A DNA stretch of 64,000 bases from Jiangella muralis (GTDB lineage: Bacteria; Actinomycetota; Actinomycetes; Jiangellales; Jiangellaceae). The stretch covers positions 537,125 to 601,124 of the forward strand of contig NZ_KQ434752.1 in assembly GCF_001270745.1 (NCBI RefSeq). Direction: 5' to 3'. The notes below the pieces were generated by a model. The model made no database searches and was not told the DNA's origin. It saw only the letters and a list, made by a program, of their open reading frames with translations. Made by a program: the position numbers and the translations under genes. Shown here piece after piece: positions 7,366 to 21,600 of the stretch (its first letter is position 1; each line of letters opens with the position of its first letter).

Positions 7366-10300
7366 GCGCCGCCTCCATGATCGCGACGTCGACATCGCGT
7401 CCATCGCGCTCGGCGGCGGCCTTGGCGGCGAGCACTCGCTTGTAGTCCGTGGGCATGATGAGTGAGAACCGGGTCATCGACGCCGGCCAGTCGGCCAGCA
7501 GCGCCTCGGCGACGGCCGAGCCGGTCTCGTCGTGGTACGTCGAGATGATGCCGTGCAGCCGGGCCAGCTCACCGGCGTCGGGCGTCTCGATCTCGACCAT
7601 GTCCGGGTTGACCCGGCTGGTGTCGAGGTCGAGCACGAACGCCGTGCCGCCGGACATGCCGGCGGCGATGTTGCGGCCGGTGCGGCCGAGGATGACGACG
7701 GTGCCGCCGGTCATGTACTCCAGCGCGTGGTCGCCGACGCCCTCGACGACGGCGGTGACGCCGGAGTTGCGCACGCAGAACCGCTCGCCCACGAGCCCGC
7801 GGACGAACAGGTCGCCGCCGGTGGCGCCGTAGGCGGCGACGTTACCGGCGATGATGTTCTCCTCGGCGGCGAACGGCGCGGCGCGGTCGGGCCGGACGAT
7901 GACGCGGCCGCCGGACAGCCCCTTGGCGAGGTAGTCGTTGACGTCGCCCTCGAGCCGCAGCGTGACACCGGCCGGCAGGAACGCGCCGAACGACTGCCCG
8001 GCCGAGCCGGTGAACGTGACGTCGATGGTGTCGGCGGGCAGGCCGGCGCCGGAGGTGCGTTTGGTGACCTCGTGGCCGAGCATGGTGCCGACGGTGCGGT
8101 GGACGTTGCGCACCTCGAGCTGGACGCGCACCGGCTCGCCGTGCTCGAGGGCGTCGGTGGCCAGCGCGATCAGCTGGTTGTCGAGCGCCTTCTCCAGCCC
8201 GTGGTCCTGGCTGGCCACTTGGCGCCGGGCGGCGCCGTCGGGCAGCTCGGGCACATGCAGGACGGGCGAGAGGTCGAGCCCGGCGGCCTTCCAGTGGCCG
8301 ACGGCGGCGACGGTGTCGAGGAGGTCGGCCCGGCCGATGGCGTCGTCGAGGCTGCGCAGTCCCAGCTCGGCCAGGTACTCGCGCACCTCCTGCGCGATGT
8401 ACTCGAAGAAGGTGACGATGAACTCGGGCCGGCCGGTGAACTTCTTGCGCAGCTCGGGGTTCTGCGTGGCGACGCCCACCGGGCAGGTGTCGAGGTGGCA
8501 GACCCGCATCATGATGCAGCCCGACACCACCAGCGGCGCGGTGGCGAAGCCGTACTCCTCGGCGCCCAGCAGCGCGGCGACGACGACGTCGCGGCCGGTC
8601 TTGAGCTGGCCGTCGGTCTGCACGACGATGCGGTCGCGCAGGCCGTTGAGCAGCAGCGTCTGCTGCGTCTCGGCCAGCCCGAGCTCCCACGGGCCGCCGG
8701 CGTGCTTGAGGCTGGTCAGCGGCGCGGCGCCGGTGCCGCCGTCGTGACCGGAGATCAGCACGACGTCGGCGTGCGCCTTGGAGACGCCCGCGGCGACCGT
8801 GCCGACGCCGACCTCGGCGACCAGCTTCACGTGGATGCGGGCGGCCGGGTTGGCGTTCTTGAGGTCGTGGATGAGCTGCTTGAGGTCCTCGATGGAGTAG
8901 ATGTCGTGGTGCGGCGGCGGCGAGATGAGGCCGACGCCCGGCGTGGAGTGCCGGGTGCGCGCCACCCACGGGTACACCTTGTGCCCGGGCAGCTGGCCGC
9001 CCTCGCCGGGCTTCGCGCCCTGCGCCATCTTGATCTGGATGTCGTCGGCGTTGCTCAGGTAGTCGGACGTGACGCCGAACCGGCCGCTGGCCACCTGCTT
9101 GATGGCGCTGCGCCGCTCGGGGTCGTACAGCCGGTCGGCGTCCTCGCCGCCCTCGCCGGTGTTGGACTTGCCGCCGAGGCGGTTCATCGCGATGGCGAGG
9201 GTCTCGTGCGCCTCGCGGCTGATGGAGCCGTACGACATGGCGCCGGTGGAGAACCGCCGGACGATGCTCTCGATGCTCTCGACTTCGTCGATCGGCACCG
9301 GCGGGAGCTGCCCGGTCTTCAGCCGGAACAGGCCGCGCAGCGTCATCAGCCGCTTGGACTGCTCGTTCACCTGCTCGGTGTACTGCTTGAAGACGTCGTA
9401 GCGCCCGGCCCGGGTGGAGTGCTGCAGCCGGAACACCGTCTCGGGGTCGAACAGGTGCGGCTCGCCCTCGCGCCGCCACTGGTACTCGCCGCCGACCTCC
9501 AGCTTGCGGTGCCGGGTGGCGCTGCCGCCGCGCGGGTAGGCCTGGGCGTGCCGGCGGCGCACCTCTTCGGCGACGACGTCGAGGCCGATGCCGCCGAGCC
9601 GGGAGGTGGTGCCGGTGAAGTACTTGTCGACGACCTCCCGGGCCAGCCCGACCGCCTCGAAGATCTGCGCGCCGGTGTAGGACGCGACGGTCGACACGCC
9701 CATCTTGCTCATGACCTTGAGCACGCCCTTGCCGAGCGCCTTGATGAGGTTGGCGACCGCCTTCTCGGGCGAGACGCCGGGCAGCAGGGTGCCCTGCCGG
9801 ACGAGGTCCTCGACGCTCTCCATGGCGAGGTACGGGTTGACCGCGCCGGCGCCGTAGCCGATCAGCAGCGCGACGTGGTGCACCTCGCGGACGTCGCCGG
9901 CCTCGATGACCAGGCCGACCTTGGTGCGGCTCTTCTCGCGGATGAGGTGGTGGTGCACCGCGGCGGTGAGCAGCAGCGACGGAATGGGCGCCAGCGTGGT
10001 GTCGGAGTTGCGGTCGGACAGCACGATGATGCGCGCGCCGGACTCGATGGCCTTCGACGCCTCGGCGCAGATCTCGGCCAGCCGCCGGCCCAGCTCCGCT
10101 CCCCCGCCGGCGACGTCGTACAGGCCGCGGATGACGTGGGTGGCGTAGCCCGGCAGGTTGCCGTCGCGGTTGACGTGGATGATCTTCGCGAGTTGATCGT
10201 TGTCGATGACCGGGAACGGCAGCACCAGCTGGCGGCACGATGCCGGGCCGGGGTCGAGCAGGTTGCCCTCGGGGCCGACGGTGCCGGCCAGTGACGTGAC

Positions 10301-15018: not shown

Positions 15019-15783
15019 TCACGATGTCGTCACGGCGGCGCGGAACTCGTCAGCGCTCATCGCCGCGGGGTTGTCGAGCAGGTCGCCGTTCAGCAGCACC
15101 GCCGGGGTCGCCTCCAGGCCTTCGTTGCGGAAGGCGTCGAGGACGTGCCGGCCCCAGTCGGCGTAGGTGCCGTCGCGGACGCACGACTCGAACACCGGGT
15201 CGTCGATGCCCGCGGCCTGACCGGCAGCCAGCAGGTCGTCCGTCGTGTAGCCGCCGGAACCCTCCTCGGGCTGGTTCGCGAACAGCTCGGTGAGCAGCTC
15301 CACCGGCCGGCCGGCGTCGACGGCGCAGCCGAACGCGTTGGCGGCGCGGTCGGACTCGTCGCCGAGGAAGGCGGCCGGGTGGTAGACGACGCGGGCGGTG
15401 CCGGCGGCGGTCAGCTCCGCCAGCACCGGCCCGCTCTCGCGGTCGAACTCGCCGCAGAACGGGCACTGGAAGTCGAACCAGTAGTCGATGGTGACCGGCG
15501 CGCTCGCCTCGCCTACGGCCACGCCGGTGCCGCCGTCGACGGTGCCCGATGGGATGGCGCCGGTGCCCTCGGGGCCCTCGGACGAGCGGTTGACCAGCAC
15601 GATCGCGACGACGGCGACGACCACCAGCACGCCGACGGAGATGGCGGCGCGCAGGAACCGCTCGCGCCGCCGGTCGGCCAGCGCCTTGGCCTCGGCCTCG
15701 GCCCGCAACTGCGCCGCCCGAGCGCGAGCCTGTTCTTTCTTCGAGCCTCGGGCCGGCGGCCGATTGCCGTGGTCGCTGGTCAT
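15019..15783 (-). CDS. Membrane-anchored DsbA-like thioredoxin (second of two)
   Basis: 254 residues, paralogous to the gene at 14115 (APVTIDYWFDFQCPFCGEFD against APVTIDYWMDFLCPHC). The active site is CPFC rather than CPHC, so the redox potential may differ. It has a basic N-terminus (KKEQARARAAQLRAEAEAKAL), a membrane helix at about 46-66 (AAISVGVLVVVAVVAIVLVN) and the cis-Pro loop GLEATPAVLLNGDLL. The ATG overlaps the trpA stop by one base, so it is probably translated from the trpBA mRNA. The predicted role is thiol-disulfide exchange in exported proteins. Confidence 0.92.
   Translation of the reverse strand: MTSDHGNRPPARGSKKEQARARAAQLRAEAEAKALADRRRERFLRAAISVGVLVVVAVVAIVLVNRSSEGPEGTGAIPSGTVDGGTGVAVGEASAPVTIDYWFDFQCPFCGEFDRESGPVLAELTAAGTARVVYHPAAFLGDESDRAANAFGCAVDAGRPVELLTELFANQPEEGSGGYTTDDLLAAGQAAGIDDPVFESCVRDGTYADWGRHVLDAFRNEGLEATPAVLLNGDLLDNPAAMSADEFRAAVTTS

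Positions 15784-16573: not shown

Positions 16574-16577
<4 letters not shown>
15783..16577 (-). CDS. trpA: Tryptophan synthase alpha chain
   Basis: 264 residues from GTG 16577, which overlaps the trpB stop by four bases (GTGA). The alpha chain cleaves indole-3-glycerol phosphate and channels indole to TrpB. Motifs: the catalytic Glu in [31 protein letters not shown], the catalytic Asp in [15 protein letters not shown], the [12 protein letters not shown] strand and the phosphate loop [15 protein letters not shown] ... [11 protein letters not shown]. The far longer upstream open frame is the antisense frame of trpB and is not part of this gene. Confidence 0.97.
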
Positions 16578-17815
<1,238 letters not shown>

Positions 17816-17888
17816 CCGTGTGCTCCTCGATGCGTGGCAGAGATGGCTGACAGGTGACGAGAGCGCGGCATGCGCCGTCACCCGCGAC

Positions 17889-17917
17889 GTTATCGCAGCG
17901 GGCGCCCACGACCCCAA
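17889..17917 (-). promoter_or_regulatory. Predicted promoter of trpB-trpA
   Basis: On the minus strand TTGGGG, 17 bases, GATAAC forms a housekeeping-type promoter, giving a leader of about 65 bases to the trpB GTG. It would replace the readthrough from trpC lost by the inserted genes. No attenuator peptide was recognised in the leader. Confidence 0.45.
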
Positions 17918-17941
17918 TCGCCTCCGGTTTTGCCGAACCGC

Positions 17942-17971
17942 TTGACGCTGCGTCAGCGCCGTCGTTACGTT
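17942..17971 (+). promoter_or_regulatory. Promoter of the Tat/GMC operon with palindromic operator
   Basis: TTGACG (17942-17947), 18 bases, TACGTT (17966-17971). A perfect 13-base palindrome, TGACGC-T-GCGTCA (17943-17955), covers the -35 element, so a bound dimeric repressor would block polymerase. A GGAAGGGG ribosome site and ATG 18006 follow. Confidence 0.5.
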
Positions 17972-18005
17972 CCACGCCCCTACCCACCAGTAAGGAAGGG
18001 GCCTC

Positions 18006-18893
18006 ATGTCCGTGCCCAGCCGCGACCTCGGCCGTCGCGCGTTCCTCGCCCGGATGGGGGTGCTCGGCGCGGCGGCGGCCGTCCCCGCGCTGGTGGCGCC
18101 GTCCGCGACCGCCACGCCGTCGGCGCTCTCGCCGCTGGTCGGCCTGCTCCGGCCGGTGCTCGCCGAGCTGTCCCGCGACACCCTGCGCGGGCTGGTCGTC
18201 ATGGTCTGCCCGGGTCCGGACGCGTACTCGCGCGCCCAGGGCACGCCGCGGGCCGAGGCGGGCGCGCTGGAGGCCCGCGGCGACGACTTCATGATCGCCG
18301 CGCTGGACGGCTTCGTGCCGTTCCCGGACCAGCTGGCCACGCCGCTGGCCGCCGCGCTGGCGACCGCCGTCGACGACATCGGGCTGCCGCTGCCGACCGG
18401 GCTGCTGGCGCCGCTGTTCCCGCCGGTGTGGACGCTGGACCGGGTGCTGCTGGAGCTGCTGGAGAACGACGAGGCGCTGCCGTTGTCGCTGGTCGTGGCG
18501 TTGCTGCTGAACGTCGTCGCGACCCAGGTGAACCCGCTGGCGTTGACCGGGCCGTTCCTTGCACCGTTCGCCCGGCTCTCGCTGGAGCAGAAGTGCCGGG
18601 CCTTCGAGCTGCTGGAGGGGCCGGACGCCGAGCTCGTCGCGCTGCTCGACGCCGGGCTGCCGGAGCCGCTGCGCTCGTCGATCAGCGGGCTGCTGACGTT
18701 CCTGGCCGGGGCGCTGCTGGAGTTCTCCGCGTTCGGCTCCTACAACGAGTGGGGCGTGTACGACGCCTCGGCCCGGACGGTGACGGAGCGGCCGGTCGGC
18801 TGGCAGCTGTCCGGCTACCAGCCCGACGGTGTCGTCGACGGCTGGGCCGACTTCATCGGCTACTACCAGGACCGGACCGAGGTGCAGGCCTGA
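18006..18893 (+). CDS. Tat-exported protein, predicted partner of the downstream GMC oxidoreductase
   Basis: 295 residues starting [20 protein letters not shown]: a twin-arginine signal ([10 protein letters not shown]) plus a hydrophobic stretch [15 protein letters not shown], so it is exported folded. The mature part is largely helical with no catalytic motif I recognise; it contains [18 protein letters not shown] and ends in an aromatic-rich stretch ([32 protein letters not shown]). Its stop codon overlaps the ATG of the oxidoreductase by one base. By analogy with FAD-glucose and gluconate dehydrogenases, where a Tat-signal small subunit carries a signal-less catalytic subunit outside the cell, it is probably a chaperone-like subunit. 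That is an inference from gene order and architecture, and it is longer than those small subunits. Confidence 0.8.
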
Positions 18894-20662
18894 TGCGCGA
18901 CGTCATCGTCATCGGCGCGGGCGGCGGCGGGCCCGTCGTCGCGAAGGAGCTGGCCGCCCGCGGCCTGGACGTGCTGATCCTCGAGGCCGGGCCGCGGCAC
19001 GCCGACCCGGACCGCGACTGGACGCACTACGAGAACGACGCCAACAACCCGCTCACCGGCTTCCTGCGGTTCGGCCCGGCCGGCCGGGAGGCGCCCGCGT
19101 GGTACCGCGAGACGCCGCAGAACTCGTTCATCTGGCAGCTGTCCGGCGTCGGGGGCACGACGCAGCACTACTTCGGCAACTGCCCGCGCGCCTACCCCGG
19201 CGTCTTCCAGGGCTACGACGGCGCCGACCGCGACGCCTACGACACGGACCACCTGTTCCCGTTCGGGTACGAGGAGCTGGCGCCGTACTTCGAGTGGGTC
19301 GAGGCGACGCTGCCGGTGCAGACCGCGGCCATGGGCACCAAGGAGCAGGTGTTCTTCCGCGGCTGCGAGGGCATCGGGCTGCCGGTGCAGACCACGAAGA
19401 CGACGACGGAGGACTCGTTCCGGCCGCAGCAGAACGCGATCCTGCAGCCCGGCGGGTTCGCCGGGAAGGTGACCGGACGGGACGACCCGCGGCTGCGGTA
19501 CCCGCAGGCCACCGGCTGCACGTTCTGCGGCTACTGCATGCAGGGCTGCAGCAAGCCGGCCGGCGCGCCGCGGAACCTGGCGGCCAAGCGGTCCACCGAC
19601 AACAGCTACGTGCCGATGGCGTTGACGGCGCCGTCGTGGGCGGCGGGTGGGCGGGCCGCGGAGCTGATCGCGGACGCCGTCGTGACCCGCATCCACACGA
19701 CCGAGCGCGGCGGCGAGACCGTCGCGGACGGCGTGACCTGGCGCGTCGGCGCGACCGGCGAGACGCACCGCGAGGACGCCCGGGTCGTCGTCCTGGCCGC
19801 CGGCTGCACGGAGAGCCCGCGGCTGTGGCTGAACAGCCGGCTGCCGAACCCGAACGACTGGGTCGGCCGCGGCTACACCGACCACTTCTTCGACTGGGTG
19901 ATCGGGCTGTTCGACGAGGACACCGGCTCCACCCGCGGCGCGGCGTCGGCGGCCCGCGCGGAGTTCCCCGGCCGCGGCGGCATGGAGAACGTCGGCCTCA
20001 CCCCCGGCCTGCAGCAGTTCGCCGCCGTCTTCTCCGACAGCGGGATCCGCGGGCACTACGCGAACGGCCGCGGCCAGGAGGGGCCGTGGGACGGCGCGGC
20101 CGGCCGGATGATCGGCCCGGAGCTCAAGGACGCCCTCATGAACGGCGTCGACCGGCTGCTGAACATCCTCGTCATCACCGACGACGACGTCGAGGCGCAG
20201 AACCGGGTCACGCTGTCCGCGCTGCCGGCCGACGAGCACGGCCCGGTGCCGAAGGTGGCGTTCCACCAGCGCAAACGGTCGGCCCGGACGCTGCGCAACC
20301 GCGAGTTCGTCTCCGCCCGGGCGGCCGAGACGCTACGCGCGGCCGGTGCCCGCAAGGTCGTCCGGGTCGACTGGCCGCCGCTGCTGCTGCACGTCCAGTC
20401 GTCGATGCGGATGGGCGCCTCCGACGCCGACTCCGTGCTGGACGCGAACGCGGAGGCGCGCTGGGTGAAGCGGCTGTTCATCGCCGACAACTCGGCGCTG
20501 GCCAACTCCCTCGGCGGCCCCAACCCGACGCTGACGTCGCAGGCGCTGGCCACCCGCACCGCCGAGAAGATCTTCCAGACCTACTTCGGCGGCGACCCAT
20601 GGGTGCACGCCGAGGCGCCGGTCGTCTCGACCGACGCACGGGTGACGGCCGCGCTGACGTAG
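18893..20662 (+). CDS. GMC-family FAD oxidoreductase with ferredoxin-like cysteine motif
   Basis: 589 residues, ATG 18893 overlapping the preceding stop (TGATG). The N-terminus is an FAD Rossmann fold (VIVIGAGGGGPVVAKELAARG, then LILEAG). C209-x2-C212-x2-C215-x3-C219 lies in GCTFCGYCMQGCSKP, a pattern consistent with an Fe-S cluster in the electron-transfer path. The C-terminal catalytic region shows HVQSSMRMG (active-site His) and NSLGGPNPTLTSQALA (second active-site position Asn). It has no signal peptide and probably travels with its Tat partner. The expected reaction is oxidation of a sugar or alcohol with electrons going to a carrier; the substrate is unknown. No cytochrome subunit gene is adjacent. 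It converges on trpC with a five-base gap. Confidence 0.9.
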   Translation: MRDVIVIGAGGGGPVVAKELAARGLDVLILEAGPRHADPDRDWTHYENDANNPLTGFLRFGPAGREAPAWYRETPQNSFIWQLSGVGGTTQHYFGNCPRAYPGVFQGYDGADRDAYDTDHLFPFGYEELAPYFEWVEATLPVQTAAMGTKEQVFFRGCEGIGLPVQTTKTTTEDSFRPQQNAILQPGGFAGKVTGRDDPRLRYPQATGCTFCGYCMQGCSKPAGAPRNLAAKRSTDNSYVPMALTAPSWAAGGRAAELIADAVVTRIHTTERGGETVADGVTWRVGATGETHREDARVVVLAAGCTESPRLWLNSRLPNPNDWVGRGYTDHFFDWVIGLFDEDTGSTRGAASAARAEFPGRGGMENVGLTPGLQQFAAVFSDSGIRGHYANGRGQEGPWDGAAGRMIGPELKDALMNGVDRLLNILVITDDDVEAQNRVTLSALPADEHGPVPKVAFHQRKRSARTLRNREFVSARAAETLRAAGARKVVRVDWPPLLLHVQSSMRMGASDADSVLDANAEARWVKRLFIADNSALANSLGGPNPTLTSQALATRTAEKIFQTYFGGDPWVHAEAPVVSTDARVTAALT

Positions 20663-20698
20663 CGCGCTCAGCCCTGGCGGCTGCCCCGGTTGAGCGCG
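20663..20698. terminator. Bidirectional hairpin between GMC gene and trpC
   Basis: CGCGCTCA (20663-20670) and TGAGCGCG (20691-20698) pair perfectly across a 20-base loop that can itself fold (GCC/GGC). It starts one base after the GMC stop and overlaps the last trpC codons, so it can serve both strands. Confidence 0.5.
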
Positions 20699-21483
20699 GG
20701 GTGGGCGCCGGCGGCGACGAGGTCGGCGACGGCGGCCCTGGGGTCCTTGCCGGTGACCAGGGTCTCGCCGACCAGGACGGCGTCGGCGCCGGCCCGGGCG
20801 AGGTCGATGACGTCACGCGCGGACTTCACGCCGGACTCGGCGATCTTCACGATGCCGTCGGGCACCGTGGGAGCCAGCCGCTCGAACGTGGTGGTGTCGA
20901 CGTCGAGGGTCTTGAGGTCGCGGGCGTTGATGCCGATGAGCTTCGCGCCCGCGTCGGCCGCCCGCGCCACCTCGTCGGCGGTGTGCGCCTCGACCAGCGG
21001 CGTCAGCCCGATGGACTCGGCCCGCTCGATGAGGCTCACCAGCGCGATCTGCTCGAGCGCCGCGACGATGAGCAGCGCGAGGTCGGCGCCGTAGGCGCGC
21101 GCCTCCCACAGCTGGTAGCTGGTGACGATGAAGTCCTTGCGCAGCACCGGCGCGTCGACGGCGGCCCGGACGGTCTTGAGGTCGTCGAGGGTGCCGCCGA
21201 ACCGGCGCTGCTCGGTGAGCACGCTGATGGCCGCGGCGCCGCCGGACTCGTAGTCGACAGCGAGGGCGGCGGGGTCGGCGATCTCGGCCAGGGAACCACG
21301 CGACGGGCTCGACCGTTTCACCTCCGCGATGACCGAGACCCCCGGAGAACGGAGCAACGGCAGCGGATCACGGGCCGGCGGCTGCTTGGCCGCCATCTCC
21401 TTCAGCTGATCGAGAGGGCACCGGCCCTCACGTTCGGCCAGGTCGGCGCGCACCCCGTCGATGATCTCTTCGAGAACGCTCAT
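20668..21483 (-). CDS. trpC: Indole-3-glycerol phosphate synthase
   Basis: 271 residues from the ATG encoding [15 protein letters not shown], with GGAG immediately upstream. It closes CdRP to indole-3-glycerol phosphate. Motifs: [22 protein letters not shown] (catalytic Lys), [43 protein letters not shown] (general acid Lys), [20 protein letters not shown] and IAESGVKS. Bases 20678-20698 near the 3' end lie in a hairpin. It belongs to the trpE-membrane-HGxxPAAW-wHTH-trpC stretch; trpB, its usual follower, is now 2.8 kb away. Confidence 0.97.
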
Positions 21484-21600
21484 CTCCGCCCCTCGCCGGT
21501 GCCACCCCGCCGAATCGGTCGACCCGGCGGGTCCAGAGTAACGGCGAGTGATGGGTGCTCTCGACATACCCCCGGTGACGGGCGCCCGATCGGCATGTGC

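Follow-up and report, generated by a model that had tools for sequence, protein, structure and literature searches.

The window analyzed here is a stretch of 64,000 nucleotides from Jiangella muralis (assembly GCF_001270745.1, contig NZ_KQ434752.1, positions 537,125 to 601,124 of the forward strand). Between trpC and trpB, and antisense to the trp genes, it carries the two genes that are the subject of this study. We call them SMALL, which encodes a 295-amino-acid protein with a twin-arginine translocation (Tat) signal, and LARGE, which encodes a 589-amino-acid flavoprotein of the glucose-methanol-choline (GMC) family (Table 1). The stop codon of SMALL and the start codon of LARGE share one base (TGATG). 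An earlier note on this DNA had described two overlapping genes on the opposite strand that split the trpC-trpB junction, and its coordinates proved to be exact. A promoter-like element, TTGACG-17-TTACGT, is visible by eye at 17942-17970 in the gap between trpB and SMALL, and a consensus scan for promoters and terminators found none. Among the named relatives found, Jiangella endophytica is the closest, with 94% identity in LARGE, in a scan that may omit the genome's own records.

Table 1. Features of the SMALL-LARGE locus and its flanks (window coordinates)
Feature	Position	Strand	Basis or remark
SMALL, 295-aa Tat-signal partner, proposed hitch-hiker (small) subunit	18006-18893	+	Open reading frame; no Pfam or NCBIfam family above cut-off
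Twin-arginine signal of SMALL, residues 1-36, ending SATA; RR at residues 10-11	18006-18113	+	Cleavage site by eye
LARGE, 589-aa GMC FAD oxidoreductase, catalytic subunit without signal	18893-20662	+	Pfam domains, fold matches
FAD-binding Rossmann motif of LARGE, VIVIGAGGGG, residues 4-13	18902-18931	+	Sequence and alignment
C209-x2-C212-x2-C215-x3-C219 of LARGE, proposed Fe-S ligands	19517-19549	+	Alignment; spacing of the Burkholderia cepacia enzyme (PMC6719666, available part)
H500 of LARGE, presumed catalytic His of the GMC fold	20390-20392	+	Invariant in alignment
N544 of LARGE, presumed catalytic Asn of the GMC fold	20522-20524	+	Invariant in alignment
Divergent gap between trpB and SMALL, 217 bp	17789-18005	.	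Cassette start near 17935-17975
trpB, context	16577-17788	-	trpA also on this side, below 17788
trpC, context, convergent with LARGE, 5 bp apart	20668-21567	-	IGPS match, E 3.6e-75

SMALL and LARGE are almost never found apart. When public genomes were scanned with LARGE, 49 loci came up. They belong to Actinobacteria, to two Burkholderiales (Aquabacterium and Leptothrix) and to one acidobacterial metagenome-assembled genome (MAG), and in 48 of them a match to SMALL lies upstream of LARGE. At the remaining locus (L043, Kribbella turkmenica, 7860-8010), the Tat start of SMALL runs into a LARGE that is missing its first ~45 residues, which looks like a deletion or an assembly fault. Of 54 pairs, 44 have a 1-base overlap between the two genes and four an 8-base overlap; in the other six the genes are 10-654 bp apart, the widest spacing lying between two fragments (L059). 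In a survey of 22 genomes of the family, the two genes are present in the same 11. When the profile of SMALL was searched against the phylum, matches were obtained in 5 of 396 genomes, with LARGE (42-100% identity) adjacent in all five; one of these SMALL matches is weak (G212, E 8e-4), and six first-look candidates were scored per genome, so that misses are possible. The earlier note had considered that the two genes might occur independently; the searches were run in both directions and neither separates SMALL from LARGE.

The Tat signal of SMALL, also claimed in the earlier note, is a property of the whole group. Our alignment of SMALL has 53 rows, with L029 and L059 of the 54 proteins recorded as dropped (frame-broken and a fragment; RR found in neither), and the twin arginine is invariant in all 53. 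Start codons were chosen with a preference for frames that keep RR, a choice that cannot create RR. The NCBIfam model TAT_signal_seq is matched by 25 of the 53 members at E up to 1, with a best E of 0.0014.

LARGE matches both Pfam domains of its family, GMC_oxred_N with E 7e-14 and 52.6 bits (cut-off 23) and GMC_oxred_C with E 2e-10 and 41.8 bits (cut-off 24.6). The alignment of LARGE has 54 rows from 55 proteins, and the frame-broken L054 and the fragment L059 are named as dropped. C209, C212, C215 and C219 are invariant in all 54 rows, and the CxxCxxCxxxC motif that the earlier note saw at residues 209-219 is thus a conserved one. Equally invariant (54/54) are H500 and N544, which we take to be the catalytic histidine and asparagine of GMC enzymes. 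LARGE has no signal of its own, as the earlier note had said: the motif for flavin adenine dinucleotide (FAD) is at residue 6 or earlier in 52 of the 55 proteins, and the other three (L043, L050 and L059) are truncated, frame-broken or fragments. In L050 (4678-6435, Fodinicola feengrottensis), LARGE has no readable FAD motif in its frame, likely an N-terminal frame break. In Jiangella endophytica (L054 8001-9824; G010:C23:392750-394514), the match to LARGE is split over two reading frames (residues 1-321 and 319-588), owing to a frame break or a sequencing error.

By sequence, the nearest solved relative of LARGE is the alpha subunit of the FAD-dependent glucose dehydrogenase (FAD-GDH) of Burkholderia (E 1.7e-17; 4.7e-24 with a profile), followed by fructose dehydrogenase. 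An AlphaFold model of LARGE has a mean predicted local distance difference test (pLDDT) of 77. With Foldseek, the large subunit of fructose dehydrogenase comes first (9jqa_A, E 1.4e-25) and FAD-GDH second (6a2u_B, E 6.2e-23). With VIA-align 2, the top match is fructose dehydrogenase 8k6k_A (Z 30.7, root mean square deviation (rmsd) 3.4 over 443 residues). Thus, FAD-GDH is the best match by sequence and fructose dehydrogenase by fold. The available parts of two articles present Tat hitch-hiker GMC enzymes as established; according to them, each of these two enzymes relies on a Tat hitch-hiker subunit and contains a 3Fe-4S cluster (PMC6719666, PMC9727119).

The cysteines of LARGE can be compared directly with those of the Burkholderia cepacia enzyme (BcGDH). 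According to the accessible text of PMC6719666, the 3Fe-4S ligands of BcGDH are C212, C218 and C222, that is C-x5-C-x3-C, and the spacing of C209, C215 and C219 in LARGE is the same. There, the non-ligand C213 lies next to the first ligand and is a member of a disulphide. The extra cysteine of LARGE, C212, takes the position expected for the second ligand of a 4Fe-4S motif. We also aligned 25 GMC proteins, including partners of two other small-protein families, Gluconate_2-dh3 (PF13618) and DUF5987 (PF19449); four of the 14 fetched partner loci gave no GMC protein by pattern and were left out. All four cysteine columns are kept in the 15 LARGE relatives (15/15) and in two Gluconate_2-dh3 partners, four other Gluconate_2-dh3 partners carry Arg at the C212 column, and four DUF5987 partners carry Met at the C215 column. 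This pattern suggests a variable cluster site that may be common to two-gene GMC enzymes, and LARGE itself would hold an Fe-S cluster.

Taken from the sequences, the most coherent reading is that SMALL and LARGE very probably constitute one exported Tat hitch-hiker dehydrogenase, with FAD and an Fe-S cluster, that oxidizes an alcohol or a sugar. In the cytoplasm, LARGE would fold together with FAD and a single Fe-S cluster, whose ligands would be C209, C215 and C219; C212 may act as a fourth ligand, in which case a 4Fe-4S cluster is possible. SMALL would bind the folded LARGE, and its twin-arginine signal would take the dimer across the membrane. Outside the cell, LARGE would oxidize an alcohol or sugar hydroxyl at the FAD, with His500 and Asn544 at the active site. 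The electrons would leave through a surface Fe-S cluster to an acceptor that is not encoded beside the pair, such as menaquinone, the diheme subunit of the bcc-oxidase or another carrier. A bolder version, possible but doubtful in our judgment, is that SMALL founds an unnamed Tat hitch-hiker family, that the cluster of LARGE is 4Fe-4S and not 3Fe-4S, and that electrons pass straight to the bcc-oxidase supercomplex (by the diheme QcrC) or to menaquinone without a dedicated cytochrome, coupling extracellular alcohol or sugar oxidation to Gram-positive respiration.

Several results weigh against the hitch-hiker dehydrogenase. FAD-GDH is not among the 50 VIA-align 2 matches listed for LARGE, and fructose dehydrogenase (Z 27.8-30.7) is followed closely by alcohol oxidase (28.2) and choline oxidase (27.9). 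These GMC oxidases have no cluster, and the fold alone therefore does not single out the hitch-hiker class. In the model of LARGE, the cysteine loop (210-218) has pLDDT below 50, and therefore the model gives no support for the ligand geometry. The same genome encodes a second GMC protein with a C-x2-C-x2-C-x4-C motif (L139, 856-2973 on contig C21) and no Tat partner seen beside it; therefore, the cysteine motif alone does not prove export. SMALL is in no Pfam family above cut-off, whether we searched with the protein itself, six divergent members or all 53 rows, and the fold searches with SMALL gave nothing of use: the best Foldseek E is 0.99, and the best VIA-align 2 match is a designed protein (Z 3.3, rmsd 4.4 over 130). 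Neither Pfam nor these fold searches thus link SMALL to a known hitch-hiker subunit. Finally, neighbourhoods vary by genus, so that GMC chemistry and 3 of the 49 loci are the basis for the substrate class. As a separate observation, L139 follows an NADH-dehydrogenase-like open reading frame (ORF).

The acceptor bears on whether LARGE is a dehydrogenase or an oxidase. The neighbours of the pair were surveyed as 674 ORFs, called by a simple finder at the 49 loci over up to ~8 kb per side, several loci being shorter because their contigs end there. None of these ORFs was seen to be a c-type cytochrome, and the only CxxCH motif is in a 4Fe-4S-type protein (L039). In the Jiangella muralis genome, the only protein detected with PF00034 or PF13442 (Cytochrom_C, Cytochrome_CBB3) is encoded next to COX3 (cytochrome oxidase subunit III); we read this diheme protein as QcrC of the bcc complex. 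The lack of a cytochrome subunit, pointed out in the earlier note, is borne out on both counts. Since no dedicated cytochrome was found, the acceptor would be menaquinone, QcrC, O2 or an unrecognised carrier. If it were O2, LARGE could be an exported oxidase that produces H2O2, with cysteines that are structural or a cluster that only stabilizes the fold, and no respiratory acceptor would be needed. The neighbourhoods without a cytochrome gene would fit such an enzyme, as would the pyranose and C-glycoside oxidases among the solved relatives and the other GMC oxidases close by fold. In addition, the available text of PMC4650693 reports a GMC glycoside oxidoreductase, FAD-GO, that was expressed together with a small subunit and is described as regenerated by O2. 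We nevertheless find an oxidase unlikely, since the cysteines fall on the columns that hold the cluster ligands in a respiratory dehydrogenase, and the best-ranking matches are dehydrogenases.

A hitch-hiker also presupposes that LARGE leaves the cytoplasm. One LARGE of the 55 scanned, from an actinobacterial MAG (L045), has a sortase-like tail, made up of LPATG, a hydrophobic stretch and a final RLRERA. This argues for export of LARGE, because a cytoplasmic enzyme would not need such a tail. It could still be that LARGE stays in the cytoplasm, and that SMALL is exported for a separate function and is merely co-transcribed, as the absence of a signal in LARGE and the second GMC protein with its similar cysteines and no visible Tat partner would allow. 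However, we regard this as very unlikely in view of the tail, the near-invariable pairing over Actinobacteria and Burkholderiales, the overlap of the genes, and the parallel pairs of GMC proteins with DUF5987 and Gluconate_2-dh3 proteins.

The proposed dehydrogenase resembles FAD-GDH of Burkholderia cepacia and fructose dehydrogenase of Gluconobacter in its GMC catalytic subunit, its small Tat-signal partner and the C-x5-C-x3-C spacing. It differs from them in that LARGE has a fourth conserved cysteine, C212, within CxxCxxCxxxC, and in that the multi-haem cytochrome c subunit was not found for the pair; in the searches of PDB chains and folds, SMALL gave no match to their gamma subunit. Other two-gene systems are also comparable. 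GmcA/GmcB of verrucomicrobial methanotrophs and a Methylocella GMC enzyme, which we liken to our pair by description only, have two subunits and proposed Tat export, with no cytochrome gene mentioned in the available text (PMC8630023, PMC12235487). Acetol and 2-propanol are their proposed substrates, the latter biochemically unvalidated and doubted in the accessible part of PMC12235487. Among actinobacterial DUF5987 loci, a GMC protein with a cysteine motif lies immediately downstream in 16 of 17 (CxNCNWM(M/L)xGC; not in L097). The cysteines are at the same columns as in LARGE with one missing, CC-M-C in the four that were aligned. A clear Tat start was seen in L082 only, so that DUF5987 proteins in general are at most candidate Tat partners. 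The Gluconate_2-dh3 pairs have a Tat-like start in 4 of 16 loci (L104, L109, L110 and L111), and the two partners with all four cysteines have the spacings C-x2-C-x2-C-x4-C (L121) and C-x2-C-x2-C-x3-C (L122). Together with GmcA/GmcB and FAD-GO, these pairs provide precedents for a hitch-hiker without a cytochrome. The earlier note had assigned our pair to the hitch-hiker architecture of secreted FAD dehydrogenases but had set it apart for lacking a cytochrome. The architecture is supported, with a putative Fe-S cluster, whereas the missing cytochrome gene is not unusual, as the two-gene GmcA/GmcB illustrates (PMC8630023, in the part available).

SMALL itself falls in no named family above cut-off, and of the two proteins in the profile search that the earlier note had proposed, only LARGE was assigned. 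The 53 rows searched against NCBIfam, and a search of PHROGs, gave only Tat-signal models and scattered weak matches to unrelated families. Gluconate_2-dh3 is not listed for any of the 53 members at E up to 10, and DUF5987 is listed below threshold for one (L052, E 0.078, 13.2 bits against a cut-off of 27). Against PDB chains, the sequence has no match at E up to 10, and the profile search gave a best E of 0.63, with none convincing. We do not conclude from the empty fold searches that the fold is new. Remote likeness was evaluated by hhalign with a profile of 35 SMALL sequences from which the signal had been removed. The score against DUF5987 (16 sequences) is 36.3, while the maximum of 60 column-permuted controls is 19.6; the match is confined to a short N-terminal segment, VPGpDxYS..PGAxeA. 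Matches to Gluconate_2-dh3 are barely above permutations for two sets and absent for a third. The Tat-type set (4 sequences) scores 24.8 in the same segment (permuted maximum 21.1), a mixed set (12 sequences) scores 21.9 in another segment (permuted maximum 20.8), and a further set (7 sequences) gave no signal (14.3, scored without permutations). These scores may hint at common descent of SMALL with DUF5987, and more weakly with Gluconate_2-dh3, and are proof of neither. A literature search, with most subscription journals outside its scope, found no description of the pair or of the SMALL family and no paper naming DUF5987. As far as our searches go, two things are new: a small-subunit family without a name, and the constant association of this family with a four-cysteine GMC clade.

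Clues to the substrate come from three of the loci. At L045 (1-9866), an amidohydrolase, two pyrroloquinoline quinone (PQQ)-propeller proteins, a CocE-like hydrolase and the pair stand in a row. The PQQ propellers, which lie upstream, and the CocE-like hydrolase are on the same strand as the pair and have signal-like starts by eye, and the first propeller has a weak amicyanin-like C-terminus. Together, these genes may serve to oxidize alcohols at the cell surface, with a blue-copper protein as the carrier. Next to the pair in L015 and L044, on the same strand, lie genes for a molybdopterin dehydrogenase, whose start looks Tat-like by eye, and for a 2Fe-2S subunit, an arrangement that would suit oxidation of alcohol to aldehyde to acid outside the membrane. 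Clustering of the neighbours at the 49 loci revealed no generally common genes from which the substrate could be named. The Kribbella loci have a transporter and further genes in common through synteny. A regulator near SMALL is common to 11 loci, mostly of Pseudonocardiaceae (the one checked is PucR-type), and at L042 an AMP-binding ligase is directly downstream. We did not accept the transporter, the regulator or the ligase as substrate clues. A long-chain alcohol oxidase, which a sequence motif had suggested for the gene, was likewise not adopted as a reading.

Direct electron transfer in glucose sensors is a purpose for which hitch-hiker FAD dehydrogenases are investigated. To our knowledge, those with solved structures work with a multi-haem subunit. 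If our reading is true, the actinobacterial enzyme, having two subunits, a possible fourth cysteine for the cluster and an unnamed partner, would be a simpler scaffold. It would also give a function to a small-protein family that is unnamed in the profile libraries searched. Because 11 of 22 close relatives carry the pair, at a single chromosomal site, screening of substrates by strain comparison is practical.

The survey of gene order across the family, which the earlier note had recommended, upholds its claim about the trpC-trpB junction. A trpC match was obtained in 20 of the 22 genomes. The pair lies between trpC and trpB in ten of these, with a gap of 2.9-3.6 kb, and eight without the pair have a short gap of 79-857 bp. 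In one genome (G002), trpC is on one contig and the trpB-pair block on another. In another (G021), the gap of 2116 bp holds a different insert with an ArsR-type helix-turn-helix regulator (L080 5043-7158) and no pair; judging by this insert, the junction may tolerate insertions. In all five genomes of the genus Jiangella without the pair (G007, G008, G009, G013 and G015), the sequence upstream of trpB is still recognisable over its first 147-187 bp, with 71-90% identity, and the match ends at 17935-17975 of the window. This places the start of the cassette at that point and leaves trpB with a leader of its own.

The family LARGE sequences form one clade (10/10, support 0.997, without the frame-broken copy of G010), their identity tracks that of trpB (r 0.92 over 45 genome pairs), and the insertion site is the same in at least two genera. 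We conclude from these sequence comparisons that the family probably acquired the pair once, long ago, and then lost it cleanly more than once. We reject a recent mobile insertion into the trp locus in view of the monophyly of LARGE and its trpB-like divergence. That the pair is a passing or decaying insertion without maintained function, as its absence from 9 of 20 family genomes with trpC, its patchy occurrence (5 of 396 phylum genomes) and the broken or damaged LARGE genes of G010/L054, L043 and L050 might suggest, is highly improbable given this single clade, the divergence in step with trpB, the shared site and the invariant active-site residues. Elsewhere in the window, a Thioredoxin/DsbA-like protein (15019-15783, Pfam Thioredoxin_4) is encoded on the trp strand directly downstream of trpA.

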